A stretch of 64,000 nucleotides of DNA from Nymphaea colorata (taxonomy: Eukaryota > Streptophyta > Magnoliopsida > Nymphaeales > Nymphaeaceae): contig NC_045139.1 in the NCBI RefSeq assembly GCF_008831285.2, positions 27,808,808 to 27,872,807 of the forward strand, read 5' to 3'. The notes beneath the pieces are model-generated. The model was not told where the DNA came from. It made no database searches and saw only the letters and a program-made list of their open reading frames with translations. Shown here one piece after another: positions 6,070-54,720 of the stretch. The position numbers and the translations under genes are program-made. Positions within the stretch are counted from its first letter, which is position 1. Each line of letters opens with the position of its first letter.

Positions 6070-7092
6070 TGTCTTGACCAAATGGGATTGGCCCATAGCC
6101 CTACAAACACCCCTTTGAGGGTGTGTGCAGGGCTAGCACCCACACAGTGTAGGTCGCTGTCATGGCTGCTTCATGCATGGCAGCGCCTGGCATGGTAGTG
6201 TGTTGCTTGGCTAGGCACCTAGCAGCATGTAGGACACATGGAATAGGGGGCAGAATGCCCCTTTATTGGTTTGTTTTGGACTAATAAGAGGTGGCTTTCA
6301 CCTTCTTGACTTCCAAGTGGTCTCACACATATAAAAAACATAAAAAATGTTTTTTAAAAACTCATATTTTAAAGAGCAAAATGATCTTTTGTTATAAATA
6401 GGGCTGACTTCATTTTGAGTGATTTCGGGCTCATTTTAGATCTGGATCAGGTTCGCTTGGTCACCAATGCATTCTACTGGATGAGTGGTTCAGGCCCAAA
6501 ACATATTTTTAAAAGTTTTTTATTTTTAGTGCAAGATTGAGACAGAAAACAAAGGGAAAGTCTGTGCATGCGCACACGATGCTCAACAGTATTGAAATTT
6601 GTTATTTGAATTTTCAGCTGAAATTTTATATTTGGATTCAAACTTTGGTTTTGGATCTAATTTGAATCCAAAAGCGGCTTTATGAGTTTGTTTTCTTAGT
6701 TTGGGCTTAATTTCATTTGTTGGGCTCAATTACGGACTTTGGCTTCGTATTGCAGATCAAGGTGTATATTTTAGATCTAAGACTTGGATTTGGATCCAAA
6801 TATTGATCTACAGTGGAATTTTGGATTTAAATCTTGTATTTGGATTCAGATATGGGTCTAGAGGTCCCTTTTGGATCAAGTAGTCAAGAATTGGACTTGG
6901 ATATGGATATAGAAGTCTTGTCTTAGATCTAGGGTCGAGATTTGAATTTGGCTATAGATTTAGAAGCCCGTTTTGGGTTAAGGTTGGGCTCGGGTCCAAA
7001 ATTAGACACAAATCAATGTAAAGTTGGTTGAAATAACTAAGAATCTTGCTTGAATGGAATACAGTTTTTTTTTTAAATTAGGGTGATAACGA
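6070..7092 (-). repeat. Left LTR (3' LTR of the Gypsy element)
   Basis: It pairs with 11981-13004 over its whole length, starting TGTCT on the plus strand in both copies. Matching landmarks include the phrase ttggtcaccaatgc, the run of GGATTTGGAT-like short repeats, and tgaaataact near the right end. Two stretches I compared by eye differ at about 4 of 36 and about 9 of 60 positions, so the insertion is old. Its terminal dinucleotide in element sense is CG instead of TG. Confidence 0.88.
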
Positions 7093-9500: not shown

Positions 9501-10399
9501 AATGTTTAATCACCTTGAGGTCTAGGCCTGACATATCTTCATAGGTCCATGTAAAAACTTTTTGATGACTTATAAAGAAGTCCACCAATTTTTTACTTTC
9601 TTATACTGACAAACCGGTACCAATTTGAAGGATCTTAGGATTCTCATTAGTTCCAAGGATGAAAGATATTTTTGTTTCTAAATTTGAGTAAATTCTAATA
9701 ACTTTGACTCAAGTGTTGTCATAGGTTTTATTTCATCAACTGTTTGTTTGACAAATGCTTTCTGAAAGGACTCCCGAGGGAAAAGAAGGAACTGAGACAT
9801 GTTGAAATTTGTCATCCTATAAAGAGGAGGATAAAGAAAAACTGAACAAAATTAAAATTGATAAACATAACAAAAGATTACTTGTATTGCATATAAAATG
9901 TTCTTAGTTCATAAAGGTGGTCCTCCCATGAGAATAGATCAGTATAAGTTAAGGTCACAAAATTCATATGAGGGTTTGAAAATAAAGGTGTATGCTATCA
10001 GCCAACAGGGTCTTCATCAAACTTCACTGGGGTACCTCAATCCTCTCGTGTTCATTTGTAAGGAGATGATGATTGGTTGTAAGATGAAATCATCATTCTT
10101 CCGAGGTCAGTGAATGGATGGTAGCCGCCTTTCAAAAGCAATTGAAATCTCTTAAGGATGTTCTTGATAGTTCAGACGGCTGCTTGAGACGATATAGGCA
10201 CTTCTAAATGATTCGCCTAAATCCATGTTCTGCATCCATTCTTCCAAAAAGTATTTTTTTCATTTTCTTTATCCTAGGTACATCCACCAAGTCATTTGGT
10301 CAAAGGAGCCTTGCTTGTATCAACCTCTAGATCGAGTCCTCCGCACTTACGGTGATGACAGATGGGCCAAAAGGCATAGGTGAAGAGTGGATGGGATAC

Positions 10400-11980: not shown

Positions 11981-13004
11981 TGTCTATGATTGGTCTCACG
12001 TGCACCGTGGCTAGGCTACAGTGCCAGTTCACTATCGTGGCTGCGCCACATGTGGTAGTGCGTGACACTATCATGCAACCTTGCCAGAGCACATGGCCTC
12101 TTCGTGCACTCCTCGGTCGAGCGCCTGACTGCATGCTGGACACGTGGGAGAGGGGACGAAATGACCCCTTGTTAGTTCATTTTGGACCAATAAGGGGTGG
12201 CTTTCGTCTCCATGGCTTCCAAAGGGTCCCATACATAAAAATCATTTTTTTAAAACACATTTTAAAGGGCAAACTATATTTTTTTTTACAAACAGGGTCG
12301 ACTTCATTTTGAGTGATTCCGAGCTCGTTTAAGATCCAGATCAGGTTCACTTGGTCACCAATGCGTTCTAATCAGTGCATGAGATTCGGATCAAGGATTA
12401 GATGAGTGGTTTAGGCTCAAAATATATTTTTTAAATTTTTATATTTTTGGTGCAAGATTGAGACACAAAACAAAGGGAAGGACAGCACATGTGCACGCTA
12501 CACTCGATAGTATCAAAATTTGTTATCTTGGCCTCGATTTTTGAATTTTGAGCTGAAATTCATCCAAAGTTTGATTTTGGATCCGAGAACGGCATTATGG
12601 GTCTCTTTTCCTAGTTTGGACTTAATTTTGTTTGTTGGGCTCAATTACAGACTTTGGCTTCGTATTTCAGATCTAGTTGTGTATTTTAGATCTAGGACTT
12701 CAATTTGAATCCAAATCTTGATCTTAAGTTAGATTTTAGACTTAAATTTCATTTGAATTCAGACATGGGTCTAGAGGTTTGTTTTGGATCAAGTGGTCGA
12801 GAATTATACTTGGATATGGATATAGAAGTATGTCTTGGATGTAGGGTTGAGATTGAATTTAGATACAGATTTACAAGTCTGCTTTGGGTTGAGCTTGGGC
12901 TTAGGGTCCAAAATTAGACCCAAGTCACTGTAAAGATGGTTGAAATAACTGAAAAACTTGCTTGAATGGAATGCAGTCTTTTAAAAAAAATTGAAGTGAT
13001 AACA
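11981..13004 (-). repeat. Right LTR (5' LTR of the Gypsy element)
   Basis: This is the partner of 6070-7092. In element sense it starts TGTTATCAC and ends AGACA. The bases just inside it read TTTCTGCGCAATAATAG in element sense and do not obviously match a common plant tRNA 3' end, so the primer-binding site is unassigned. The open frames on its plus strand are incidental. Confidence 0.88.
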
Positions 13005-28300: not shown

Positions 28301-31300
28301 GGGAAAAAAAAATAAAAGAAAAAAGACCTGTCCTTTTTGAAAAGCTTCTAGACTGTCCAAGTGATGTACGTTCATGACAGTTTCTTTCGGAAATAACCAC
28401 ATATCTGCCTCCCTTTTTTCCTTTAATATATTGTGTTGGATTTGGCAGACATCCTGTCACGACAAAGTGTTACAGCAAAACTGCAAATGTTAGAACTTAT
28501 GATGTAGAAAGAGAAAACTGGCTAACCTTACTGTCAATTCGTTTCAGTAGTGGTATGCATTGACCACTTTAAAACAGAAAGCCACAATTTTACTATAATT
28601 GCAACAACCAACCCGCCCCTCTAGGGCCTCTGATATGGAAGTTGATGTGCACTCATAACTTAGCTATATTAGTAAATTCGGTGACAGTCACCCACTAAAC
28701 CCTTTACTCACCCTGCATTGCTGGAAAAATGTTGCATGTCATCTTCACATAGATGATATTACCTTTGATCTGCCATTGTCTGCTTTTCTTTTTTCGCATA
28801 TAGAAGGTATCCTGAATGTCCCCAACTTGCTTCTCATGATGCTAAAATTGAAGATGCTTTTTCTCTATGTTGATATTTTTAAGGGAGATGTTAAAGGTGT
28901 ATCCTATGTTGTTAAGGTCTTGCCTAGGCAACGCTTAGGCATGGACTATCGCCTAAGTCCACCACTTAGGCGATAGGATATGTGCTGGTGCCTAGGCAAA
29001 CCTAGGGTAGCCTAGGTACCTGCATGCCTAGTCCATGGGAAAGTGAAAAGTCACCTTCCTTTTCAATTAAAGTTTCTTAATTGAGTATGTAGTGTTATGT
29101 ACTTTATTTTGTATTGATTACGGATTTTTATGTATTGTTATATTGATTATGTTGTTACATATGTACTGTTATATGTTTATATTCTAGCCACTTAGTCTGT
29201 TACATAGTATTGCACCTGTTATATATATGTATACTTATGTATGGTTATGTTAGGTACTTATATCATATAGTTATATGTATTGGTAATTTGTTAAAGCTGT
29301 TATAAACTGATGTGTTTATACCAGTGTCACAAAAAACGCGTTACTTTAAAAAGAAACGCAAAAAAAAATGTGCAAAAATGAATTGTCAAAAAACGTGTTT
29401 TTTTCAAAAAAAAAGGTAAAAATGAAAAAAAACACGTAAAAAATGCATTTAAAACATAATTTTTTGCGTCTTGTTTAAAAGCGAGATTTTTTTCAGGTGG
29501 TGGCATCACTTGTAATTTTTAAAAATCTTAAATGGTAGATTTAAAAAAATGACTAAAACACAAACGGAAGACGTTAAAAACATTTGATCATTAGAGGGGT
29601 AAACAACTCGACGCGATTTAGGGTTTTTGTTCAAAATTGGGGAAACTCGAAACAAGAACATTTCCAACTTCCAGCAACATTCCCGACCTACCTGTGGAAC
29701 ACATCGGCATGCGTTTGTTGGGCAGCTTCCGACGAGCAGCAGCCATGTGAAACCTCGGACGGCTGGGTACATTTTCCGGCACCCAGCAAATCTCTGACGG
29801 TTTTTCCTTCCGCAGGTAGGATTTTCTTTGGTCTTTTCTGTCGATTTGCAGATTTACCTTGGATTTTTTTGAGGTAAGCAGTACTGAAAAGGACAGGACA
29901 TGTAGGTTTTCTAGTTTCTGATTTTTTTCCTGTATTTTTCAAGCTCACCTTCTTATACCAGAGAGAAAGTATGCCGTTTAAAACACCATAACGTTATTTG
30001 TGGCTATGGTATATACTATTAGGTACTGTTAGTCTGTTTTGTTATATTACCTGCTGCTATACCTGTTACATGTATTGTAATACCTGTTATATGTATTGCT
30101 AGTTTGTTATAAAACTGTTATAATACCTGCTGTTATACCTGTTATGTACTGTTAGTCTGTTTTGTTATATATAGTACCTGCTGTTATATGTATTGTAATA
30201 CAATTTGTTATTCTGTTATTTGTGTTGTAATACCTGTTATATGTATATACTGTTATGTACAGTCTGTTATACCTGTTATATAGTATTGCATCAACTTGCT
30301 ATATGTATATAGTATATACTATTATCCTGTTATATAATATGTAGTATTGTGATACTTGTTATATGAGTAATGTTAAACTTCTTTTATTGATTTTGCATAT
30401 TCAATGAAATCAACAATTAAGTCTTGATTGGTTAAGTTGATTATGTTTGTTATATTGCTACTCTATAAATTTCAAATATTAGTAATAGTTAATCGAAACA
30501 ACTTGACATAATAGCATAACTAATAAAATTAAAAAAAAAATTGGTCTCCTTTTTTGCCTAGGCCCGCCTAGGCACTAGCCGCTGTCTGGTACCAAGATGC
30601 TGCTTGAGCGCCTTGACAACATAGGTGTACCTGCTTCGAGGTGATGCCTTGGTGCCTTGACAACATAGGTGTACCTGCTTCTAGGTGATGCCTTGGCGCC
30701 TTGACAACATAGGGTGTACCTGCTTTGAGGTGGTGTCCTTGATGAAACTGATATTGCACATATTCTCATATCATATTATATTAGTATCTACTGTTAGTCA
30801 ACACATATAGCTGTTGATGTGTGGAGAACGTCATGCATCAAGCACTAAGCTAACAGGAAAAGAGAATCATCAAGATAAGTTTGAAGTATTTCAACAGCAC
30901 TGATAGGTTCACGTATATCCATGGAGAAAGGCCAATGCTTCATCTTATTTGCCATGGCGACATGTATATATCAGCTATATGTGGATCCATCGAGACTATA
31001 GAGGTATTAAGAAAAAGTTACAAAGCACCAAAATGTTCATTACCTACTACCCCTGTCCATCTCTAATAATTAGTGTGAAATATGCATAAATATTTCCTTT
31101 TTTTTCATTTTTCCTTCAAGGTTTGATTACCATGCTAACTGTTGGGCTAGCTTCAAGAGCTAGTCTTTCCCCTTCGTCTCGGATATATGGATAAACCTTT
31201 TTTATATCAACATTCTTTCTCAAGCATTATTTCATTAATAAATCGGTTTTTTTGTTGAGTTTCTTTGGTTTAGGGCGCTCATTAATAAATCTGAAGTAGG

Positions 31301-32705: not shown

Positions 32706-32943
32706 TGGCAATCAAGAGGCTTTGAGGGCATTCAATAAGAGCACTGTGTTCTTGGAACACATGTTTCAAGAATACCATATTTTTATTTTAGGAGTATGGT
32801 GTCATTATGCCTAACATTTGTTTGTGGCAATCAAGAGGCTTTGAGGGCATTCAATAAGAGCACTGTGTTCTTGGAACACATGTTTCAAGAATACCATATT
32901 TTTATTTTAGGAGTATGGTGTCATTATGCCTAACATTTGTTTG
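32706..32943. repeat. Perfect 119-bp tandem duplication
   Basis: The bases from tggcaatcaagaggc to cctaacatttgtttg occur twice back to back (32706-32824, 32825-32943) with no difference that I can see. The unit contains ataccat and gtatggt facing each other. Perfect identity in non-coding DNA points to a very recent duplication. Confidence 0.95.
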
Positions 32944-33714
32944 TCGGATTTAGAAACACGACATTTATATCGAGGCCAAGAACATGGTGTTCTTGTAACA
33001 TGTTCTAAGAACATGTATTTTAAAATGAAATGTTCTTATCACCAGGGGCGTATACATGAAACGATTTAGTGCTTCTCGTGTTTACAGCATTGTCAACGAA
33101 GACATGTAGTAAAACTCTGGCTTAGAACATATTTACTAGCTACTGCAGACATGTCCTCAAAGCTCCATAGATGAATTGACCTGTCATGGCTGGTGTCTTC
33201 AGTGCACAATGCATTTATTTTCTGCTCGGCACTTCCTTTTCGTAGATGATCTACCATCTTCATCTGACGGTTCTTAGTTTAATGAGATTGATTGTGTGGC
33301 ACTCATATGGAAATATGCAAGTTGTGTTGGCAGGGGACGATCCAAAGCAAATATAGTTGCCAAGCATTAGAACCACAATTGACATGACATGGTTGGCCTG
33401 GACATAATTGGAAAGAATCAAATCCGCAGCAACTAAAAGTCCATGCATCCTAATAAAACTGAAAGTGACTAATTAGCATAAAGGAGAATAACAAGTTTTG
33501 CCTTGTAGAATCAGAGCAAGAAATCACTTGTCTAACGGTAGGCCTCCTTGTCGGCAAATTCTGATGTGTTTAATGTAGATTTCTAAAAGCAATTTAGATG
33601 GTTACCACCTTATCATAGGAATAAGAAGTTCAAGAAATGCAGCCATAAATTACTCAATCAATATTCATATAACAACACTGCCCTATCAATTATAAAGGTC
33701 AGAATTTTGCATAC
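32944..33714. other. Spacer with no recognised gene
   Basis: I looked here for the acyl-CoA oxidase exon that should follow 33715 in the minus direction (its conserved Cys-Gly-Gly-His-Gly segment) and did not find it. No other feature is supported. Confidence 0.45.
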
Positions 33715-38749: not shown

Positions 38750-39060
38750 AAAGTAAGGACGGTAACGGATTGGATTCGAATCAAATGTATATTTTACCAT
38801 ATCCATTTTTTCAAATATCTATATATTCAGATTCGAAACAAAGAAAAATTTTATACAATATCCAAATTCGTAATCTGCATATGATCTGAATTTGACATTT
38901 AGATTAACATCTGAATCCAAGCCCGAGTTTAAATTGAATTCAAACCACATTATAGACATTGAGTATAGAATATTTACAAAAATCTATTTCTGCCCGAATT
39001 CAAATCCAAGTCCAGTCAATCTTTACTTCAATTTGAACCCGAACCTGAATCCGATCACCA
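38750..39060. repeat. Dispersed repeat with ATTCGAAT/ATCTGAATC phrases
   Basis: This stretch is rich in short phrases such as ggattcgaatc, aacatctgaatc and cccgaattcaaatcc. A second stretch at about 47590-47800 has the same phrases in the same order, for example attcataatctgaatctg followed by aacatctgaatc. They appear to be two diverged copies of one unnamed repeat. Confidence 0.5.
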
Positions 39061-41519
39061 AATTCGGAGCTTCACAGGGAAGCGGAGAGGTGCGTAGATG
39101 TCCGACTAGCGAGCCTTGCAGCAGTGGGGCTAAGAGGAGATGGAGGGGTGACAAGGCAACAGATATAGTTGAAGCTTCAGCTTGGAGAGCTGGGGCATTG
39201 ATGCTACCACCAGGTCTGATAGACACCGAGAGTGTGGATGAAGGAAATTACGGCTAAAAAGATGACTGCAAGGAGAGGTGGGTGTGCAGGATGAAAGGTT
39301 GATGACCTATGGGTTTGAATCATCGACACTGAGAAGGAAGAGATTCGCCGGCCGGAAATGGTAGGAATAATGAGAAGGTGAAGTCAAGGAAAGAGCTTGA
39401 AGATTGGGTGAGCAGGGCCAAGTTGAGGAAGAGGAAGCCATGGGAGAGGGGTGCAAACAAAGGCATCAGAAGCAAGCAAGGTCCCTTATTCATTTGGAAA
39501 ATAGCTGGCCTTGTTTGCCGGGATGACGTTTTTCAGTATATAACGTTGTAAAGATTGGCCTGAATGGGATAAATTTGAATCAAATTTGTGCGAGATTGAC
39601 TCAATCCATTAACCGATGCAAGGTTGCCCTGTATCATAATCACTTTTTTATTATTTTAACTAGGTCTCAAAGAAGTTTCTCCAAAGCTTATACTGTTATA
39701 GAAATGGACATGTGGCAGAAGGGTACGCCACTACAGCTAGATCTCCCAACCTACCTACCACAGAAATGGTCAAACCTTATTTGCAAAACAATCAAGATAT
39801 GGATGAAGGTTGCCTTTGTTTCCCCACTAATTTTTTGATCCGAGGGGATATGAAATCCATGCTAGGTGAAATCCACGGTCTTATCAAACTATAAATTTCA
39901 ACATCCACCCGAGACATCTACGTTATAGTATCAAAAGCATAGATTTGATAAGATTTGATGTTCGAATTTTTTTTTTTTTTTTAGGTGGGGGTGGGGGGGG
40001 AAGGGGAGGTGCAGACTTCAAAATCATGAATCTGAAATCCATGGTAGTCAAACGCGACCTAAAGTGCATAAAACCCCACAAATCCTTTTAGTCCCAGCCA
40101 TTTAGTGCCATAACAATTTCAAGGGGGCTTTTATAAAAAACAAGCAGGCTGAGCTGAAGTTATCATAACCAAGTGGCTGTTTCATAAAGTGATGCTTACC
40201 TTTTTTCTGCTATTTTTAAACGGCATCGCCTTGAGCTCCCAATTTTAGCAATTATTGCTTGACGAGTTCATACTTTTGAGAAAGCCAAGGACTTCTTTCC
40301 CAGTGCCGGAGGGCAACAATTGACAAAGACTGGTTGATTTACCAAATGGCACCGCTATTTTCAGCAATTCAAATTCAGACAGGAAAAACCTTAAAATTTG
40401 AATCCCCTGTCAACCACTCTCCCAGTTCAGTATAAACAACCCATCAGATTTAGCTTACTTCATATGTTTCAGTTAACAATTCTCCCCCTCTTTTTCAATC
40501 ATATAATCGATCTCTAGCCACCAACAATCATAATAAACCTGACTCCTAAATTTGTCTCCCAATTCATTAAATGTGCCACGATAAAATAGTGAGAAAAGGG
40601 AGATGTACAGACAATAGCTAAGGTTTTTAGAATGGGCAGTTCTCAAAATTTACTTAGCACCCATGTTTTGGATACATACACACATGGCACCTTTATTAGG
40701 CAGTCTTGTTTTGATGGTGATTTCATCCCCATTTTAAAAATTTTTTAATATATCGAACTGTAAGTGTCAAGAATTATGGACTAAAATAAATATAAAATAT
40801 GATGTGCGGATCAAATTTTTTGAAGATCTAAAGAACAGCATTTTTCAGTTTTCTCCGCTTATAACATCGACATTGAATTCTTATGACTTTTTATCACACA
40901 TTTTTAGAGGTTTTGTTCTTACATTCCTCATTCATTTATCGTTGAAGTATTATAATAAAATATACCGCAGTTAAACGCCAGATGGTTGGACAGCCGAATC
41001 CATATTTTCATGATGAACAAAGAAATCGACACAGCAGGCTCACCTATGACTACTAAGGCTACTTCACTCTCTTCATTAAGGTAGATGGCCTGCAGGATTA
41101 ACTCTGCGTTGTGTGTTGTTTAACCATTTTGTTAGTGTAAATCATCAGTTTGCGTAAACTTGAACTTGTCGGCCAAAAAAGAAAAGGTTCGGCTTAACCA
41201 TAAAGAGAACGAGGTCTCAGTTTGAAATACCAAAAAACTATTTGGGCTCGCATCCGAATTGCAAAGGACTTTAGGGATGTTTCAGCAAGTAATGACCGAA
41301 CAAATTAACATTCACGGCCAAGCTTAAATTTCTCTAGGGCCATCTCATCTCGTCCATGCATAGTGGGAGTTGCCAGCTCCACAAATTTTAACAAGAACGG
41401 ATGTTTGTTATTCGAGCCTATCTCCTCTCCTCCTCTCTACATCTTTTCCTTCTAAACACCTTTCACAATAGTTAACAAAAAAGTTACTTGGTGTGGCCTC
41501 GTGTTCAGCTCAAAGAGGA
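39061..41519. other. Spacer upstream of the receptor kinase gene
   Basis: 39065-39500 is clearly richer in G and C than its surroundings but shows no supported exon. A poly-T then G-rich run sits at 39965-40010. The promoter of the plus-strand receptor kinase must lie in the last few hundred bases, but I see no clear TATA box. Confidence 0.45.
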
Positions 41520-42331
41520 ATGCTCAGCATGCTCTGCAAACCTAAATTAAGTTCTTGCACAACCTTGGGCCATGCATCCATGACTAAGATCAGCACCTCC
41601 TTCACATTCCAACCTCCCACCAATCCTCTTCTCCTCTGCCTTGTACATGCCAATGCGCACCTCCATGCCATTGTCATCTTTGTCATTGTTTCAGTGACTA
41701 TGTGTTGTTTGTTTCCTAGTGCAGACGCTTCGCTGGAATCCGATTCCAAATCCTTAATGAAACTCAAAGAATCATTTGTGGGCGCTGATGCTCTTCTGAA
41801 TTGGAATGCATCACAACCACCTTGTGATGGTGACAAGGCGGCATGGACAGGGCTCAGGTGTGTAAATGGTACTGTTACAATCGTGCAACTTGAAGGACTT
41901 GGCCTGAGAGGGTTGGTCGACGTTGACGCGCTTGCTGCCATCCCAACATTACGGTCTGTGAGCTTCATGAACAACAATCTGTCAGGCGCAATGCCCAACT
42001 TCAGGCAATTTCGTGCACTAAGAGGAATTTTTTGTCAAACAACCAGTTCTCCGGTAACATACCTGCAGATCAGTTTGCAGACATGTGGTTGTTGAAGAAG
42101 GTATGGTTGTCGCAGAACAAGTTTTCTGGGCCAATCCCAGCATCCCTTGCATCCAGCTGTCCACGGCTCATGGAATTGAGGTTAGAGCAGAACCAGTTTA
42201 CCGGGGAAATACCAGATTTTGGGAAAACCAAGTTGACAATGTTTAATGTGTCTTACAATGAATTAGAAGGAAACATCCCACAGAATCTAGAAAATATGAA
42301 CGCAAGCTCTTTTGAAGGTGATCCACTCACT

Positions 42332-42365
<34 letters not shown>

Positions 42366-45300
42366 GTATGAAAGATTGGAAGTGTCATGGAAGAAATGCA
42401 TTTCAATGCAGCATCGAACTTGGAACTATTATATATGTCAACATAAATAGCGTCAACATCATAGAGCACAATATGTAGTGATATTTAACAGCTTGATTAT
42501 CTCATTTCCGTTGCCATTTATGTCCTAGAAACAGCAATTGTTTTGTCACATCGTTCAGCGGCATCACTGTTGCATGGTTTTTTTTTCATCATCTTTGTGG
42601 TTTGTCATATCATTAACATCATCCGTGTGATAGTTGCTACTCCTATCTGATTTTCTAACAAAAAATCGCTAAGACCAAGCCACCATACAATTGTAAGACC
42701 TCCGAGGGTCGATCAGCCCAACAACTTGCAGCTCTGTTCGTCCAAGTTCTTTGCATACTTTGGCACAAGCGGAAACCATTTAGAGCAACTCATGATGGCA
42801 CAATTGAATGATCTTGAGAAGGATCGAGGTGACAAGACATGAAAAACGGAAAAGAAATTACACAACAGAAAACGCCAACAAAAGCTCCATCCACCTACCT
42901 AGGAAGGTGAGACTGTACACCTGGAAACTGGAGGTCAAGAGTTGAATACCCACCGTATCTCTTGGCATATTCTGGCCGTGGTCTACTTACCACCGGCATT
43001 AAATGAGAAGGAAAAATTCCGTAAGATAATCATCAAATAAAATGGGCATGTATCACTCCGACAACCAAGTTTTGAGTTAGAAATCATTGTATAACTTGTC
43101 TAGGTAGCATCATGCTCAGGATTTTGATTATTAACTCCATGATTAGAGATGCGAACAGTCTTGCATGTAGTACTCTGAACTTTATAATACTAGAAATTTT
43201 AATTAATCACCAGCCTGGCCTTTTTCATTACTTTCAATCTATGTGCTCCTTACTCAAGCCTGGTGAATGAATAGAATTTAAACCTCATTTTTCTTCACGG
43301 AATATGTGCTTGAATCCTTGATTTACCTCTGATGGGCTTCTTTCTAACTTCAGCAGACTCTTAATAAGTTTTCAGCAATATTTATCGGCGATGCAGGAAA
43401 CAAGGCCTTGTGTGGTCCACCATTAGAAGCAGTATGTCCCAAAAAGACATCAAAGAAGAAAGGCCTCAATCTGATCATCATAATTGTAGCATCTGCTATA
43501 GCAATTGTTATTCTGGTTGCAACTGTTGGCACCGGCCTTATGTTATTTAGATGCGGGGCTACAACACAACATGCCCACGATTCACCAAACAGCTCAAAGA
43601 AGGTGACATCTGTTGAGGAAGGAAATGGAGGTCATGGTTCAACAGGAAAACAACGTGGCAATGGTGGTACCAATAATGACATGAAAGGTAACGAGATGAG
43701 GGAGCTTGTTTTCCTGACGGATGACAGAGTACCATTTGAGTTGCAAGATCTGCTAAAAGCATCTGCTGAAGTGCTAGGAACTGGGAGCTTTGGGTCCTCA
43801 TACAAGGCTATGCTTCAAGATGGTTCTACAGTGGTAGTAAAAAGGTATAGGGAGATGAATAACTTGGGAACGGAAGAGTTTCATGAGTACATGAAGAAGC
43901 TTGGTAGATTAAGCCACCCAAATCTGTTGCCATTAGTGGCTTATTACTACAGAAGGGAGGAGAAACTGCTCATCTACGATTATGTTCCAAATGGGAGCCT
44001 AGTTTATCTTCTCCATGGTAAGATCATTTGCACTTCAACAAACTCAAACTGAGATACTTTTGGATAACTCCGGTCTCCCTAGAGTAATCCCTTAGGGAAT
44101 TTTCTGGGGACATAGGCTGAAGTATCACAGGCCAAGGACTGTGATTCCTCAGCTTCGGTTATTGACCACCAGATAAGGGATAACAACTACAGTTGTAGCA
44201 TATGACTCTTCTACAATTGACGTATTATGATAAGGGATAGAAGAACCTGTTAGATAAAACTTCGGAAAACATGCACTAACTATCAAACTAGATTCAGAAT
44301 TCACTATTGTAAATTGACCAAGTACACAACCAAGCAGTACTACCATGAGCTGAATGCTAACCATGTGGTTCCATGGATCTTATTTACGATGATTACCGAT
44401 CTAACTGCCAGGATGGGCCCAGTTATCCAACAGGAAGTAAGTTGTGAACGTCACCACCAATACTAGTATCATGGATCTGCATGCATCCCTCTCTGCAAGA
44501 CCGAAGATATGAAACTTTCCGGAGGGTAAAGCGAACCCAAAGTTTACACCTGTGAGCTCATGAGTGAGCAAGGTTGCTTCCCTAGGATATTGCAATATAA
44601 AGCTGCATTTGCCTTAAGGAGCAGGCATTTGAAACTGGTTTTCTGTCTCTTCTTTTCTCTCTCTCTCGCCTCCTTTTCCTTTCACCCCCTTCTTTTTCGT
44701 TTTTCTTTTTCATGACCATCCTCTCTACCTTAGTATGGGTTGATCCCGCTACTCGTAAGACAAATCCAGTGCATAGACAGACTTTCATGACCCAATGCAA
44801 GATTAGCACTCACACATAGAAATTCATGACCGTGTATCCTTAACTACATATGCATGTATAAGAAAGCATCAGTTGCAAATTCTATCTAATGACACAAGAA
44901 ATTTAGAAAGCTTCAACCATGTGCTAACCGTTACCATGCCATTTTTCAGGTAAGCACACTCCAGCTTTTGCACCGCTTGATTGGCCAACACGTCTGAAGA
45001 TAGTCAAGGGTGTGGCTAGGGCCCTGGCTTACCTCTACACAGAGCTACCAACTCTAGTCCTTCCGCACGGTCACCTGAAATCTTCCAACATACTCATAGG
45101 TGAAGATTATGAACCCCTTCTGACCGACTATGCGCTGATGCCAGTAATCAATACGCAGCACGCGATGCAATTTATGGTGGCCTATAAGTCCCCAGACTGT
45201 TCAGATGGTCTTGCAACAAAGAAGTCCGACGTCTGGAGCTTGGGGGTGTTGATTCTGGAGATGCTAACAGGAAAGGTTCCCAAAGTATATCTCAAAGAGG

Positions 45301-45635
45301 GAAGGGGAGGCACGGACCTGCCTGTTTGGGTGACTTCAATGTTGACGGAGGACCGGGCCGTCGATATCATTGATGAAGAGATGTGGGGGACTAGAGGAGG
45401 GGAAGGTGAAATACTGAAGCTACTACAGATTGCGCTGGCATGTTGTGAGGAGGATGTTGGGAGGAGATGGAGCATGGGAGAAGCACTAGCCAACATAGAG
45501 GAGCTGAAGGAGAGCGGAGGTGAAGAAGATGACAGATCAACGTATGGTACGGAAGGGGAGGGGAGTCAGTCGCACTCATCTAGAGGACAGAGTGGCGAAG
45601 GATTCTCCATCTACCCGATGGAAGATCAAGTGTAA
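41520..45635 (+). CDS. LRR receptor-like pseudokinase, pollen receptor kinase type (frameshifted)
   Basis: Exons: 41520-42317, 43397-44017, 44950-45635, with GT-AG introns. Their sum lacks one base of a whole number of codons; with it the product would be about 701 residues. The first in-frame ATG is at 41520, and ATG 41580 may suit the signal peptide better. In order: hydrophobic leader (HAIVIFVIVSVTMCCLF), LRRNT-type segment (LLNWNASQPPCDG), about five LRRs (NNNLSGAMPNF, NKFSGPIPASL, NQFTGEIPDF), a membrane span (LIIIIVASAIAIVILVATVG), a juxtamembrane region, and a kinase-like domain with GTGSFGSSYKA and VVVKRY. The catalytic loop reads HGHLKSSN and the metal site DYA, so catalytic Asp and DFG are lost, as in pollen receptor kinases. 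These sense peptides at the plasma membrane and signal to ROP GTPase activators. A T is missing at about 42028-42033, breaking the LRR frame, so this is either an assembly error or a young pseudogene. Confidence 0.87.
42333..42362. repeat. (CT)n microsatellite in receptor kinase intron 1
   Basis: A pure CT run of about 30 bases starting 15 bases after the 5' splice site of intron 1. Confidence 0.96.
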
Positions 45636-47829
45636 GGCGTGGCAAGACAGGAGAAGAAGAACGTACTTGGGACAAAAAGTGAAGGAACTGACTCAACTGC
45701 TGAGTGACTTGAATTGCCTGGGATGAGAGTGGAAGGAGTGAGGTCGGTAAACGCCACGCCGGCAGGGGACAGGCGCGAGGGAGCTTGCATTGTACGGGAA
45801 GGATTACAGAAAGCGCGCATTCTTTCTTTCCTTTTGCTGCTCCTCGGAGGTATATTTCTTCCTCCCCTGTGAAATTCGCAGGAGATTATGATCTGTGCTG
45901 ATCGCGCACACGCGCTTGTAAGCGTAGTGAGCTTATCTGCATAATAGTGAATGAGTGAGATTGCTGTTAGCTTATGAATCCAAACGGAAGGCAAAATTCA
46001 TGGACGCACCACTGTGACCTGTAAACCAGTTGCATTGCAGGTGCCCGATTCCTCATTCGCTACCTACAATTGCAATGGGCAACGGGAAAAAGCTTCCCCC
46101 CTGATGCCAAGCACTCTCCTATACACGGTACATTTGTTGTTTCCTAGTTTGCGTTTAACAACCTCGTTTGTTCCTTCAGCTTCAAATATGACACAGTTTC
46201 TTGAAAAAGAGAGAAGTATATTATCAAATGCAATTTTCTCTTGAATAATTTACCGTATAATTCGCCTTTCAACTCTCATCTCGTCTTCATGCCTGCATTC
46301 AAAATTTTCTAACATGAACATGATCGTTTTCGACAAAGGACGAATGAAATGTTCAAACTTTAAATCGATTTTCTTGTAAGACTGATGAGAATATCCAAAT
46401 GGGGGCTCGTTCTTGGAACCCTGCTTCGTCCTCCCCCCTCTCTCCAGTGACCGGCCGACCCTATCAAAATCAGGAAACTAAAATTCCAATTAGGAAAGGT
46501 TTTTGTCTCGTTAGGGTTCGCGATGAGAGTAACTAAAGATACAGATCCATAGAGAAGAATAGAGAACTCGTTGTACACGTACAGAAAGCAGGGAACGGCT
46601 GAGGACTCCGGACTGCTTTCAGCAACGGCAACCCCTTTGCAGCGGAGAGCCCTAACAACAAACTCTTTCGCTTTTCCGAGCTGATTATGAAAAGCCAAAC
46701 CAAGATTCACAGCCTCAAGCCCTCGAACCTCTGACATCAACAAAGAAGATCATCATCAAAGGTACCCTCCGCCAATAAGTTCCTCCAGAGACGGACAATC
46801 TGAAGTTCAGCTCGATCTCCTCAGTGGCAGATCGATCATCTCTGATGGGCCTCCATATGCAGCCCGATATTCTCCTTCTTCAGGCCTTCCCTCTTAGGGA
46901 TTTCCCTCCCTCCATGAGAGGAAAAAACTGTCGTTGCACAATTCGTAGTTACAACAGTTGCGCCAACAAGAAGGCGCGGCGGTTGCAGAGGTGGATGTGG
47001 AAACGGGTTGGACACATTTCGGATCATTATCCAACTAGGGTTGGAGATTTAGTCATTGGCTAAGCATTTTTGTTTGACCAAGTATTTTAAAATATCTACT
47101 AATTATTTTTTAAATAAAAAAATGACAAATAGCTTGATGTTTAGCAGCCACTTGTTGTAGTCCGAATTTATATTTAAAGGAATTTAAATCTGAAAGTTAG
47201 GTCCAAACATCATCCCAACATGTAGAGTTGAATCCAGACACAAAATAACCCTTCTCCTACGGATAAATAAAAATATTAAACATTTGAACCGGACTCTCTA
47301 TTCGGATCCAAATTAAAACCCAACATCCATTGAGTTGCATATCATGATCTTAACGATGGAGAGTGGAGAGTGATAAATGGAACTCAAATGAGATGAGGTT
47401 CAATTCAAGTGTTGTTTTTCTCGTAGTAGAAGTAACTATATCACGGCAGGCTATACCGGTGGACCCAAAAAATATATGAATACAAAGAAGATATGTTGCA
47501 ACAGTATGGAAGACCATATTCCCTACTTAAGATTAGAATAATCCCTCGATGGTATATGTACAATTATCATGTAATAGCTAGAATGTGAGCAGATCATATT
47601 TGAATCGTACCGTACCTGATTTTTAGGATATCTATATAATCAGGTTCAAATTCATATTCGAATATGGATAAAGAAAAATTCATATTATATCTGAATCTAA
47701 TGTCTGAATTCATAATCTGAATCTGATTGTTAGATAAACATCTGAATCTGAATTTGTTCAATATTTACTTAAACCCCAATTCAAATCTGAGCCAATGTCA
47801 TTTCTTATATTGGAATCCAATCTGATTTG
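45636..47829. other. Spacer between the receptor kinase gene and the satellite
   Basis: The first few hundred bases are probably the 3' untranslated region. 46390-47060 is GC-balanced and open on both strands, for example a minus frame with LGLAFHNQLGKAKEF. It could be an exon or leader of an unrecognised gene, but nothing confirms it. 47590-47800 is a copy of the dispersed repeat also seen at 38750-39060. Confidence 0.4.
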
Positions 47830-50800
47830 GCTTTTTATTGTAAAGTCAGTCTACACAGTGTCATTGTCGCATTTAATTTTTCAGAGTGCTTACCACATCT
47901 TTGTAAATACGATTTTATTTCAGTATACCGTAAAACGAATTACACAATTGTGTTATCGCAATCTATTTTGTATGACTGCTTGTCACCTCTTAATGAATGT
48001 CTTTTTATCATCAAACTAGTCTATACATTGTCATTTTTTCATCTAATTTTTTTGAGTGTTTATTGCATCCATATAAACGCGATTTTATTTGAGTGTGTCG
48101 TAAAACAAATTTTGCGGTTACATTATCGTAATCTATTTTGTTTGATTACTTATCACGTCATATTAAACACCATTTTATCATAAACCAGTCAATACGGTGT
48201 TGTTTTCGCCTTTAATTTTCTTGAATGCTTACTGCATCCTTGTAAACATGATTTTATTTTATTGTGTCGTAAAATGAATCCAACAGTTCGTTATCACAAC
48301 CTATTTTGTCTAATAGTTTATCACCTCTTAGTAAATGTCATTTTATTGTAAAACAAGTCCATAAATTGTCGTTGTCGCATTTACTTTTTTCGAGTGATTG
48401 TCACGTCCTTGTTAACATGATTTTATTTGAGTGTATCATAAAACGAATCCTACATTTTTGTTATCGCAATCTATTTTGTCTAACTGCTTATCGCCTCTTA
48501 GTAAATACTTTTTTATCGTAAAAGCAGTCCATACGGTGTCGTTATCGTACTTAATTTTTTTGAGTGTTTATCTCATCCTTAATTTTAATTGAGTGTATTG
48601 TAGAATGAATCCTACAGTTATGTTATTGCAATTATTTTTGTCTGACTTCTTATCGTCTCTTAGTAAATGCATTTTTATCGTAAAACCAGTCCATAAAGTA
48701 TTGTTGTCAAATTAAATTCTTTCGAGTGCTTATAGCATCCTTGTAAAATGATTTTGATTGAGTGCATCATAAAACGAATCCTATAGTTATGTTTATGTAA
48801 TATGTTTTGTCCAACAGCTTATGGCCTCTTCTTAAAGACCTTTTTATCATAAAACTTGCTCCTATAGTGTCATTCTCGCATTTAGTTTTTTCGAGTGCTT
48901 ATCTCATCCTTGTAAACATGATTTTACATGACTATATTGTAAAATCAATACGGCATTTGCATTACCATATGAGTTTTTTGTGTTTATCGCGTCCTTGTAA
49001 ACATAATTTTATTTGTGTGTATTGTAATACATCTGCATGTATGGTTAAGCACAATTTTATTTGAGTGTATCATAAAATAAATTGTACAGTTGCATTGTAA
49101 AACACATTTAATTTTTTCAAATCCTTATCGCATCCTTATAAATGCAATTTTATTTGTGTGTATGGTTAAATGAATCATACAGTTGTGTTATCATCATCTG
49201 TTTTGTTTAACTACTCATTCTCTCTTAGTAAATGTCTTTTTATCATAAAACTAGTTCATACGATGTCGTTGTCGTATTTAATTTTTTTCGAGTGCCTATT
49301 GCATCCTTTAAACACGATCTTATTTGAGCGTACAGTAAAATGAATCTTGCAGCTGCGTTTTCGTAATTTGTTTTGTCTTATTGCTTATCGCCTCTTAATA
49401 AATGTCTTTCTATTATAAACCAGCCTATGTTGTTGCAATTAATTTTTTCGAGTACTTATCTCATCCTTGTAAATACTATTTTGGTTGAGTGTATTATAAA
49501 ACGAATAATGCAGTTGCATTATCGCAAAGTTTTTTGTGTTTATCGTGTCCTTGTAAACATGATTTTTTAAGTGTATCATAAAATGAATCATTTAGTTGTA
49601 TTATCGCATGAATTTTTGTCTGACAATTTATCAGCTTTTTATCTTGTAAACACAATTTTATTTCAGTACATCATGAAAAGAATCCTACGATTGTGTTATC
49701 ACAATCTGTTTTGTCCGACTGCATATCACCTCCTAGTAAATGTCTTTTTGTCGTCAAACCTGTCCACACAGTCTCATTATCCCATCTAATTTTTTCAAGT
49801 GCTTATCGTGTCCTTATAAACACGACCTTACTTGAGTGTATAGTAAAACGAATCATGCATTTGAATTATCGTAATTTATTTCGTCCTACTGTTTACTGCC
49901 TCTTAGTAAACGCCTTTTTTTCATCAAACTAGTTCATAAAGTGTTATTGTTACATTTAATTTTTTTGAATGTTTTATGTTTCCTTGTAAACACAATTTTA
50001 CTTGAATATATCGTAAAACGAATCCTATAATTGCATTATCACATTTTATTTTCTCTGACTGTTTATCTCCTCTTAGTTGTCTTCTTACCATAAACCAGTC
50101 CATACAGTCTTGTTGTGGCATTTAATTTTTTTGACTGCTTATCGTGTCCAGAAACACGATTTTATTTGAATGTACGGTTAAACCAATCCTATTGTTGTGT
50201 TATCGCAATTTGTTTTCTCTGGCAACTTATCGCCTCTTAGTATATACCTTTTTTACTGTAAAACCAGTTCATACAATGTTGTTGTCTTATATAATTTTTC
50301 TCATTGTTTATCGCATCTTTGTAAACACGATTTAACTAGAGCGTATCGTAAAACGAGTCCTGCAGTTGCATTACCGTATGATTTTATGTGCTTATCAAGT
50401 TTTTTACAACACAATTTTATTTGAGATTATCGTAAAGGAGTCTTGCAATTGCGCTATTGCTATCTATTTTTTGCAACTGCTTATCGCCTTTTAGTAATTG
50501 CCTTTTATTGTAAAACTATTCTCATACAGTGTCGTTGTTGCATTTAATTGTTTCGAGTGTCAATTGCATCCTTGTAAACATGATTTTATTTGAGTGTATC
50601 ATAAAAGAAATTTTGCAGTTATGTTATCACAATTTGTTTTGTTTGACTACTTATCCTCACTTAGTAAGCTCCCTTTCATCATCAAGCGCCCTTTTATCAT
50701 CAACTCAGTCCATACAATATCATTGTTTCATTCTACTTTTCTAAGGCTTTATCGCGTTTATGTAAACACGATTTTTACTTGAGCGTATCGTAACACGGAT

Positions 50801-53612
50801 CTTATAGTTACGTTATCGCAATCCATTTTGTTCGACTGCCTATCACTTCTTAGTAAACGCCCTTTTGTCGTAAAACAAGTTCATATAGTGTCATTGTTAT
50901 GTTTAATTTTTCCTTGTGTTTATTGTCTCCTACATGGTAAAATGAATTTTGTAGTTACATTATCATAATCGGTTTTGTCCAAATGCTTTTTTGCTCTTAG
51001 TAAATACCTTTTTATCGTAAAACTAGTCCATACAGTATCGTTGTCGCATTTAATTTTTTAGAGTGGTTATGTAGTCCTTGTAAACATGTTTTTATTTTAT
51101 TATATCATAAAAGGAATCCAGTAATTGTGTTATCACAATTTGTTTTGTTTAACTGCTTATTGTTTCTTAATAAAAAAACTCTTTTACCATAAACTCTTTT
51201 ACCATAAAACTAGTCCATACAGTGTCATTATCACATTCTATTTTTTTCAGTGTTTATTGACTCTTAGTAAATGTCATTTTATTATAAAACGCCTTGTAAA
51301 TATGATTTTATTTAAGTGTATCGTAAAATGAATCGTGCAATTGCATTATCGCAATTTGTTTTGTTCGATATCATGTTGCGTCTTATGAAATGTCTTGTTA
51401 TCGTAACACCAATCCATATCGTGTCATTGTCACATTTAATTTTTATAAGTGTTTATCACATCCTTGTAAATACGATTTTATTTAAGTGTATTGTAAAACG
51501 AATCTTACAGTTGTGTTATCATAATCTATTTCGTCTGACTGCTTATCACGTCTTAGTAAACACCTTTTTAATGTAAAACTAGTGCACACATTGTCGTAGT
51601 CGCATTTAATTTTTTTCGAGTGCATATAGTGTCCTTGTAAACATAATTTTATTTGAGTGTATATACATTTGCATTATCACAATCTGTTTTGTTTGACTGT
51701 TTATCACTCCTTAGTAAACCCCTTTTTATCCAAACCTAGTCCATATAGTGTGGTAATCGCCTTTAATTAGTCTGACTGCATATCTAGTCCTTGTAAACAC
51801 AATTTTATTTGAGTGTGACGTGAAATGAATCTTGCATTTGTGTTATCACAATCTGTTTTATCTGACTACTGATCCCTTCTTAGTAAAGGTTTTTTTGTCG
51901 TAAAACTAGTCCATATAGTGTTGTTGTCGCATTTAATTTTCTAATGCTTATCTCCTCTTAGTAAATGTCTTTTTAACGTAAAATCAGTCCACACATTGAC
52001 GTTGTTGCATTTAGTTTTTTTGAGTGTTTATCACATCCTTGTAAACATAATTTTACTTGAGTGCATCATAAAATGAATCATGTAGTTGCATTATTGCACA
52101 ACTTTTTGTATCGATCGCGTCCTTGTAAACATGATTGTATTTAAGTGTATCAGAAAATGATTCCTATAGTTTCATTATTACATGATTTTTTGTCTGATCT
52201 TACCGCCTCTTAATAAATACCTTTTTATCGTAAAGTCAATCTACATAGTGTCGTTATCTCATTTAATTTTTTTTAGCACTTATCGTGTCCTTGTAAATGT
52301 GATATTATTTTAGTATATCATCAAACAAATCGTGCAGTTGCAATATTACAATCTATTTTGTATAACTGTTTATCGCCTCTTAATGAATGTCTTTTTATCG
52401 TCAAATACGACTTTATAGTGTCGTTGTCACTTCTAATATTTTTGAGTGCTTATTACGTCCTTATAAACTTAATTTTATTTTAGTGTGTCTAAAAAAATCA
52501 TGCAGTTCGGTTATCCTAATCTATTTTGTCTGACTACTTATCACCTCCTATTAAACACCTTTTTATCGAAAATCAGTCCATACAATGTCAAAGTCACATT
52601 TAATTTTTCTTAGTGCTTATCTAGTCCATGTAAATTCGATTTTATTTGAGTGTGACGCAAAACAAATCTTGCATTTGCGTTATCGTAATCTATTTTGTTT
52701 AACTGTTTATTGTGTTTTAGTAAACGTCTTTTTATTGTAAAACTAGTCCACAAAGTGTCATTGTCGTATTTAATTTTTTTGAGTGTTTATCGTCTCTTAA
52801 TAAATGCCTTTTTAACATGAAACCAGTCCACACATTGTCGTTGACGCATTTAATTCTTTCAAGTACTTACCGCATCCTTGTAAACACAATTTTACTTGAA
52901 GCATCATAAAATGAAACATGTAGTTATATTATCACACGATTTTTAGTGTTTATCATGTTCTTGTAAACACTATTTTATTTGAGTGTATCGTAAAATGATC
53001 CATGCAGTTTCGTTATCACATGATTGTTTGTCTGACTACTTACCACCTCTTAGTAAATACCTTGTAAGCACAATATTATATTAGTATATCGTAAAATGAA
53101 TCGTGCAGTTATGTTAGCCACTGTTTATTGCCTATTAATGAACACCTTTTTATTGTGTTATCAGAAGCTGTTTTGTACGACCGTTTATTGTCTATTGATG
53201 AACACCTTTTTATAGTCAAACCAGTCCTTATAGTGTTGTTGTCGCTTCTAATTTTTTTAAGTGTTTATTACGTCCTTATAAACATGATTTTATTTCAGTG
53301 TGTTTTAAAACAAATCCTACAGTTGCGCTATCGTAATCTGTTTTGTCTAACTGTTTCACCTCTTATTATCTTCTCTTAGTAAACGTCTTTTTATCGTAAA
53401 ACCAATCGATACAATGTCATTGTCACGTTTAATTTTTTCGAGTGTTCATAGCAACTTTATAAACACAATTTTACTTGAGTATATCGTAAAATGAATTATG
53501 CCGTTACATTATCACACGATTTTTTGTGGGTATTGTGCCCTCGTAAATATGATTTTATTTGAGTGTATCGTAAAATAAACCTTGTACTAACATTATCGCA
53601 AGTTTTGTACAA
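47830..53612. repeat. Degenerate satellite array, about 170-bp dimeric monomer, about 34 copies
   Basis: The marker phrase cagtccatacagtgtcgttg (with changes) recurs about every 165-175 bases for 5.8 kb. Each monomer has two related halves. Half A, about 90 bp, runs from gtccatacagtgtcgttgtc through cgagtgcttatcgcatcc and ttgtaaacacgattttattt to gagtgtatcgtaaaacga. Half B, about 80 bp, runs from atcctgcagttgcgttatcg through ctgactgcttatcgcctc and agtaaatgcctttttatc to gtaaaacca. They share the pattern gt(c)gttatcgca, then (g/c)gctgcttatcgc, then gtaaa, then tttttatcgtaaaac. Copies differ at many positions and some halves are deleted or joined out of order, for example near 48960 and 53040. 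The runs of open frames across it are by-products of the repeat. Confidence 0.93.
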
Positions 53613-54720
53613 ATTTTTTTGTTATCCTATTTTTGTTGGATATTACATTTAAATCAGACTTATTTACATTTCTAGTAGTATCATGTATTTAACAAAACAA
53701 AACGTAGGAAGGGAAAAATAACCAAAAAACGTATGCGACCAATTTAGGATCACTGACTAGGCTCGATTGGATCAGATACCAAATCTATCATTCATGGCAG
53801 CTATTGATTATGAGCCAAACATACTCGCTCACCTTCTAATACCCAGATTCAAATTTAAGTGGAACATTATGAGATCCAGTCGCCTTGATCCTATGAGTAT
53901 TTACCAGAATAGATGAATTTGATTGCGAGTAGCCCATTTGATCAGCAACTCAATTTGGATTTGGTTCAGACAAATTCAATTTTAGACTAACTAAATCTAA
54001 GTTCAGTTTTACATAATTCATTCAAGCTACATAATTCATTCAAGCACCAGTTCTAACCGTATACCAAATGACACGAACCTAATAAGGTTGATATCTAAAT
54101 CCGAATCTCACATGCAAACCACTTATGTCACAGAATATTCACCTCAAACTCGTAAAGCACCCAATGTTCTTAACAGCAAGATGACCTGCCAGGACCCCTT
54201 GGTATTTAAACTCTCGACGTTCAATTATTATCGAGAAGCTTCTCCAAATTAAAAAATAGAAAAAGATCATCGACTTCATCATCAAATACATGTTCGGCAA
54301 AAACACTGCATGTACAACACATGTTTCCATACCATATGTTCATGTTGTTTCAACAAAACATGGTATGATTATGTCTAGTATTTGAATGTTAATATTAAAA
54401 ACAAGTGCGTCACGTCAGCTGAAAGGGGAGGGGGGAGTTATCACCAAATCATGATTAACAAATGCCCTCAAATGCATGTTTGAAAGCCCGACCTTAAATC
54501 AAGGCTCTTTAATGCAGCAGGCACTTGCGCTTCCAACAAGCTCTACACCAAAATCCACGCATGAGTCATCCAAAGATTTGAGATGAAACACAAAGGCCTC
54601 ATAGAGGGGAAGGATAAACTCACGCAAATAGTTACGATACAAGTATCATTAGACAAACTCACTCCCGATAGCGAACGAGTAGAGATTTTTTTTTCCTAAT
54701 ACCTCAAATGTATTAATACA

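Follow-up and report, generated by a model that had tools for sequence, protein, structure and literature searches.

Results

We analysed a 64,000-nucleotide stretch of the Nymphaea colorata genome (C2:27,808,808-27,872,807 of the 408-Mb assembly; hereafter the window). It carries a tandem array that is a fossil copy of a dispersed dimeric satellite, the 170-bp monomer of which consists of two related halves, A and B. Arrays of this family lying outside transposons have a genealogy close to a star, the strongest result of the analysis, and other arrays occupy one and the same position in copies of a Mutator-like element (MULE). The best explanation, to which we give a probability of about 0.6, is that tandem half-units, probably of the MULE, underwent amplification (perhaps as circles) and spread to many sites, after which the arrays became static and decayed.

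Genealogy of the satellite units

The sample consisted of the window and 21 further array stretches (L009-L029), some of which are neighbours or recent duplicates (L014-L016; L022-L024; L025/L026). With the window included, 17 stretches are without transposon flanks (called free below) and five have such flanks. Together they contain 632 half-A units, 571 of which were compared after the recent duplicates L015, L016 and L025 had been dropped.

Among the free arrays (523 half-A units, 15 stretches), mean pairwise identity was 0.7196 within a stretch and 0.7193 between stretches, and the standard deviation (SD) of the pairwise identities was 0.0504, compared with 0.0495 after within-column shuffling. 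The window alone gave similar values (35 units, identity 0.7223, SD 0.0497 versus 0.0484 column-shuffled). The greater likeness within than between arrays that marks concerted evolution was therefore not found in the 523 free units. When a tree was built from a random 260 of these units, internal branches contributed 17.6% of the total branch length. Four shuffled sets gave 15.7-17.0%, and the figure was 45.5% (15.5% when shuffled) for a control set that included known recent duplicates. Runs of six units showed no colinearity between loci beyond 20 permutations, except for L015/L016 and L025/L026 (largest excess 0.081; null maxima 0.069-0.091). A departure from a perfect star is seen in the mean nearest-neighbour identity of the 571 units, 0.849 versus 0.842 shuffled. 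The tree of units, which an initial annotation of the window had proposed for what it took to be an old local array, is near-star with almost no grouping by locus among the free arrays. The near-star genealogy and the near absence of locus structure suggest that amplification and scattering of the free arrays were short relative to mutation, with little turnover afterwards.

Structure of the array in the window

The array measures 5,780 bp, corresponding to 34 units of 170 bp, and a circular-profile fit over 47,827-53,606 gave 29-39 copies per position with a mean identity to the consensus of 81.5%. Tandem Repeats Finder reported periods of 169-170 bp, together with half blocks of 80-84 bp, in several pieces across 47,833-52,859. 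Self-offset identity was maximal at 170 (0.405 versus 0.301 expected), followed by 80 (0.358) and 90 (0.344). The initial estimate of about 34 copies of a roughly 170-bp monomer is confirmed.

The description of each monomer as two related halves of about 90 and 80 bp also holds, as the consensus halves align with a score of 71.5, above all 2,000 dinucleotide shuffles (mean 21.7, maximum 45, z 8.6), half A carrying an extra segment of about 10 bp. Two phrases had been named as common to both halves; ATCGTAAAAC does occur across both (five exact copies), but the exact form of TGCTTATCGC is found only in half B (three copies), half A having near forms. Half-unit deletions are likewise evident. 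Six junctions are of the A-A type, with a loss of 85-86 bp, and three of the B-B type, with a loss of 90-92 bp; a further 11 irregular jumps measure at least 20 bp. BLAST rows inside the array numbered 358 on the plus strand and 0 on the minus strand. Made of head-to-tail, non-coding monomers, the array is satellite DNA, and its characterization as an old, diverged, dimeric satellite with a monomer of about nucleosome length is upheld. Positions of the main features are given in Table 1.

Table 1. Positions of the satellite array, its parts and the adjoining dispersed repeat in the window
Feature	Position	Strand	Basis or remark
170-bp dimeric satellite array	47828..53606	+	about 34 monomer lengths, every copy in the same orientation
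Half A, example (90 bp)	47872..47961	+	segmentation
Half B, example (80 bp)	47962..48041	+	segmentation and A/B alignment; without the ~10-bp segment of half A
A-A junction, example at 52,945 (84-bp A' variant)	52849..53021	+	
Further A-A junctions in the array	48,979; 49,538; 50,382; 52,112; 53,528		
Left part of short dispersed repeat, cut where the array starts	47609..47826	+	genome search and profile matches
Probable right remnant of dispersed repeat	53635..53681	+	nine-copy model, 1.5 bits

Other identities for the array were considered and rejected. An RNA gene or tRNA was dismissed because there was no Rfam match at gathering score and no tRNA was predicted. A nested sub-repeat of about 28 bp was dismissed as well, lags of 25-30 reaching z values of at most 1.06 versus 4.5 at the half-unit lag of 80; lag 63 (z 3.11) fell under the 95% null limit of 3.28. 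A plasmid collection gave no match, and one 19-base pattern had none in viral contigs, neither being a plant collection.

Dispersal of the satellite family in the genome

A 401-bp piece of the array gave 344 genome matches (39 of 230 first-look candidates scored) and the satellite consensus gave 483 (26 of 175 candidates scored); both searches, the second of which had been suggested in the initial annotation, speak against a local array. The matches listed fall on 13 contigs (C1, C2, C3, C5-C10, C12-C15), and grouping the listed rows of both searches by hand yielded at least about 29 separate array places. The longest unbroken block is 8,467 bp (L028), and the L012 cluster exceeds 8.7 kb, running into the end of its stretch. 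Both orientations occur in 10 of the 17 free stretches and in 0 of the five transposon stretches. "Old local array", the initial summary, therefore keeps its first adjective and loses its second: the same family is present on these 13 contigs, and the array starts in the middle of a dispersed repeat.

Growth of the window array at its present site by unequal crossing-over, followed by ageing in place, accordingly seems the least probable of the explanations weighed. Half-unit junctions do record past unequal exchange, and there is weak likeness at unit lags 1 and 6 (0.735 and 0.741, compared with a mean of 0.722). Such an origin is, however, largely refuted. The family is spread over the genome, the window units resemble those of other stretches (0.719) about as closely as they resemble each other (0.722), only 5 of the 35 have their nearest neighbour inside the window, and the A' junction of the window array is common to the other free stretches.

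Hardly more credible is the idea that the family is a centromeric or pericentromeric satellite and the window array a stray piece of it, with megabase arrays perhaps missing from the assembly. The 170-bp monomer and the location of several arrays towards the middle of their contig are in keeping with it. Against this, contigs carry several separate arrays of kilobase size, there is hardly any homogenisation (72% pairwise identity), and the window array is intergenic and embedded in a dispersed repeat. Long homogenised arrays with one main site per chromosome, as expected of plant centromeres, were not found among the matches listed, and the likeness to centromeric satellites that had been remarked upon is supported neither by array size nor by scatter nor by homogenisation.

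The phases at which arrays end are scattered (Rayleigh p 0.87 for 22 five-prime ends and 0.20 for 22 three-prime ends; these ends include transposon arrays and some inner ends, and values of 2 and 169-170 may be profile-edge effects). Masked flanks directly adjoining the free arrays had nothing in common, save for the recent duplicates L014-L016. On account of these scattered phases and unshared flanks, we rejected the notion that a free array is itself a transposon with fixed ends. The L014-L016 regions (C3:9.92 Mb and C3:13.20 Mb) contain the same inverted satellite blocks 3.3 Mb apart, with flanks 95-99% identical, and are a recent segmental duplication.

Probable insertion of the window array into a dispersed repeat

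The window array seems to have gone into a copy of a short dispersed repeat that was already present, taking the place of about 50 bp of its sequence. Used as a query, the left part of this copy gave 46 genome matches, one of them to itself (40 of 254 candidates scored), and profile matches cover 47,617-47,753 and 47,749-47,828. Other aligned copies extend about 100 bp past the point at which the array starts. The left-hand cut is firm, and because the array cuts the repeat, it probably arrived by insertion.

Support for the right-hand continuation is fair. In the nine-copy model the right remnant lies at model positions 349-395 (the left part ends at 296), with a score that none of 500 shuffles and none of 600 random windows attained. 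Support was weaker with a five-copy model, whose score of -3.5 bits was equalled in 4 of 300 shuffles and 4 of 400 random windows, and in single pairwise tests the score was reached by 4 to 68 of 300 shuffles; the L044 copy was excluded from both models. A genome search with the right flank of the array returned one match, namely itself. The window holds a second copy of the dispersed repeat at 38804-39057 (E 4.4e-36).

A MULE-type transposon carries five arrays

In L010, L017, L018, L025 and L026 the array occupies the same position within a copy of one transposon. All five have about 3 kb of sequence in common on the upstream side of the array, the largest flank pieces being 73-79% identical between copies (94% for L025/L026). 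On the downstream side, four copies have at least 1 kb in common, and for L025 the common part amounts to about 175 bp. The same left end was identified in L017, L018, L025 and L026, and gave 40 genome matches (40 of 361 candidates scored).

Judged by its predicted domains, the carrier is a MULE with a FAR1-type transposase and a Ulp1-like gene. The MULE transposase domain (PF10551) was matched in the L010 copy (E 8.6e-13, 49 bits versus a cut-off of 27.6), and the FAR1 DNA-binding domain (PF03101) in the L018 copy (36.8 bits versus a cut-off of 28.1), with a match below the cut-off in L010 (18.3). Matches to a SWIM zinc finger, at 15.9 and 15.7 bits, were under the cut-off of 19.6. The FAR1/transposase region is common to the L010 and L018 copies (4.1-kb alignment, 75%). 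Pieces resembling the Ulp1 protease domain (PF02902) adjoin the array on the opposite strand, one of the four scoring above the cut-off (L018, 24.2 bits versus 20.7); the FAR1 and transposase domains lie beyond them. The reading frames of the transposon are broken.

A sixth copy, L037, contains a short, degenerate and mixed array with extra half types. One of these, B-long, was found twice in L037, once in L022 and nowhere else; another, C, was found twice in L037 and as one loose match in each of L013, L017, L018, L019, L024, L028 and L029. The best-match setting of this motif scan undercounts ordinary A and B halves, and only the rare motifs were used. An array at C12:695,956-697,766 is preceded, at a distance of 3.7 kb, by a transposon end (C12:692,277), and the two are perhaps a seventh copy.

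Two further observations concern the same transposon. The same MULE copies also contain another tandem repeat, which has a period of about 202-207 bp and is unrelated to the satellite (L010:7947-9090 and L026:1262-2018); in the L010 copy it is located within the long stretch between the Ulp1-like and transposase regions. Moreover, the 35-kb contig C407 has three transposon ends on the same strand, at 9612, 18831 and 27954 (9.2 and 9.1 kb apart), which are possibly a tandem array of whole elements; the examined C407 interval (L033) contained no 170-bp array.

In pairs of transposon copies, L025/L026 left out, the half-A units are on average 72-76% identical and the largest flank pieces of the same pairs 73-79%, which suggests that the spread of the transposon and the divergence of the units are of similar age. 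For L025/L026 the flanks are 93.8% and the best-partner units 92.1% identical, compared with 75-77% between units within each array, indicating that the order of units has been stable since these two copies split.

Origin of the satellite family

In the preferred explanation, tandem half-units, most likely in a MULE, would have given the AB dimer, which would then have multiplied rapidly; rolling-circle replication of excised circles would be the simplest mechanism. The resulting pieces would have integrated at numerous positions, with differing phase and in some cases in inverted orientation. Unequal crossing-over and conversion would afterwards have renewed the arrays very little, leaving them to decay mainly by C-to-T change. 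No present function of the arrays is indicated.

Several observations weigh against this explanation. The A' junction was counted 140 times in blocks of at least 500 bp (duplicates L014-L016 included), in 17 of 17 free stretches and in 0 of the five transposon stretches. Transposon arrays also carry distinctive markers, such as A at column 42 (57% versus 3% in free arrays). The free arrays are therefore not directly derived from any of the five transposon arrays sampled; the two groups are sister sub-families. Three free blocks of at least 500 bp also have no A' (the L020 minus block, the second L021 block and the last L016 block), and free blocks without it exist among the smaller, uncounted ones. 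The star is imperfect in that 14.9% of the 571 units have their nearest neighbour in the same stretch, compared with 6.6% when labels were shuffled (reached in 0 of 200), and in that the internal structure of the tree is slightly above all four shuffles. The transposon arrays, for their part, have locus structure (0.7655 within versus 0.7434 between, 48 units). No target-site duplication was recognised at the window array, and no inverted copy of the left end that would make a terminal inverted repeat (TIR) was detected in 17 kb (L018 and L030) or 24 kb (L010, L031 and L040), non-TIR MULEs being on record in a study of grapevine elements (PMC2528002). Six other copies of the transposon end are without an array in the part examined, which comprised 9.5 kb of C407 and five pieces of 3 kb each; the position of these pieces was set by distance, and an array could have been missed. 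Finally, the circle step is inferred, no circle having been observed, and the comparison covers only the 21 stretches and the window.

The boldest step is the origin of the satellite in the MULE, for which capture is the main rival. In that scenario the free arrays came first, and the MULE took up a piece and spread its own sub-family, being a carrier and not the source. We consider this possible but the less probable course of events. The absence of A' from the five transposon arrays and the presence of an array near only some copies of the transposon end speak for it. It fits poorly, however, with five copies that differ by up to 27% and all have their array in an identical position next to the Ulp1-like gene, and with the mixed L037 array, whose extra half types resemble raw material more than a captured piece.

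Origin in the MULE, the preferred explanation, can also be put in a stronger form, which we offer tentatively and hold to be rather doubtful: the MULE may have acted as a satellite factory, its circle-amplified dimer reaching dozens of sites across many chromosomes nearly simultaneously. If this were true, the free arrays would hardly have recombined since, and their star genealogy could be dated and read as a single event.

Mutation pattern and age

Relative to the window consensus, with the majority base taken as ancestral, transitions were most frequent at CG sites (32%, 198/618), followed by CHG (26%, 121/457) and CHH (19%, 201/1,053), and amounted to 5.6% at A/T positions (205/3,645). The observed/expected ratio of CpG is 1.23 in the array versus 0.43 to its left and 0.39 to its right within the window. 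A transition bias of this kind would be the expected trace of methylated-cytosine deamination in a repeat rich in CpG. In the tree of 260 free half-A units the terminal branches have a mean length of 0.145. Plant substitution rates are about 7e-9 per site and year, which very roughly suggests an age of around 20 million years, to be taken as an order of magnitude only.

Comparison with known transposon-linked satellites

Satellites linked to transposons are already well known; what differs here is the MULE as carrier and the near absence of locus structure in the free arrays. In oysters, satellite-like arrays of the Cg170/HindIII type are described within Helitron/Helentron elements (PMC7492417, PMC12628747). 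Like the present family, Cg170 is reported there both inside transposon copies and as scattered standalone arrays, in both orientations. Its carrier is a rolling-circle Helitron, however, and its monomers are said to group by cluster in homogeneous arrays, in contrast to the free arrays studied here.

Among plants, the Chenopodium satellite CficCl-61-40 is traced to CACTA transposase fragments (PMC7320549), and non-concerted satellite evolution is reported for C. vulvaria (PMC6429384). As described in these reports, that system shares with ours the tie to a DNA transposon and, in one species, low homogenisation. It differs in having a 40-bp monomer derived from CACTA transposase coding sequence, whereas here a 170-bp dimer lies beside the Ulp1-like gene of a MULE and a near-star genealogy has been measured over assembled loci. 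Lathyrus satellites are described as arising from tandem subrepeats of Ogre retrotransposons (PMC7004042); there, as here, a mobile element contains short arrays in a constant position, and an origin in the element has to be weighed against capture by it. By that account, though, the carrier is a long terminal repeat (LTR) retrotransposon, and the arrays became long, expanded and sequence-homogenised, unlike ours.

The closest counterpart of the carrier itself is a group of grapevine Jittery-like MULEs with a ULP gene downstream of the transposase (PMC2528002), which, as in the present element, combine a FAR1-type transposase with a Ulp1-like gene in the same orientation. Unlike here, passages of that paper on these elements describe no satellite array, and the word 'tandem' is absent from its main text. 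A MULE as satellite carrier was not found in the open-access literature, judged mainly by titles and passages.

Satellites are expected to homogenise array by array. Many dispersed arrays almost without locus structure would allow amplification to be separated from later turnover, and the burst could be dated and either tied to transposon activity or separated from it. Such a family could also serve for measuring mutation in sequence that hardly recombines, and offers a snapshot of how tandem repeats are born.

Surroundings of the array

The array is flanked by open reading frames (ORFs) of a leucine-rich repeat (LRR) receptor kinase at 41.5-45.6 kb and by a RanBP2-type zinc-finger ORF at 61.6-62.0 kb, so that the intergenic position first assigned to it is confirmed. 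The former belong to an LRR receptor-like kinase gene on the plus strand (41472-45632; LRRNT_2, LRR and kinase domains) and end about 2.2 kb before the array. Elsewhere in the window, a direct repeat of about 850 bp (6225-7070 and 12131-12982, 5 kb apart) has 76% identity, and a minisatellite with a 44-bp unit in 3.1 copies (30603-30741) has a G+C content far above that of its surroundings. At 32706-32944, a 119-bp unit occurs twice in tandem, and the 100% identity of the two copies indicates a duplication that is probably very recent.

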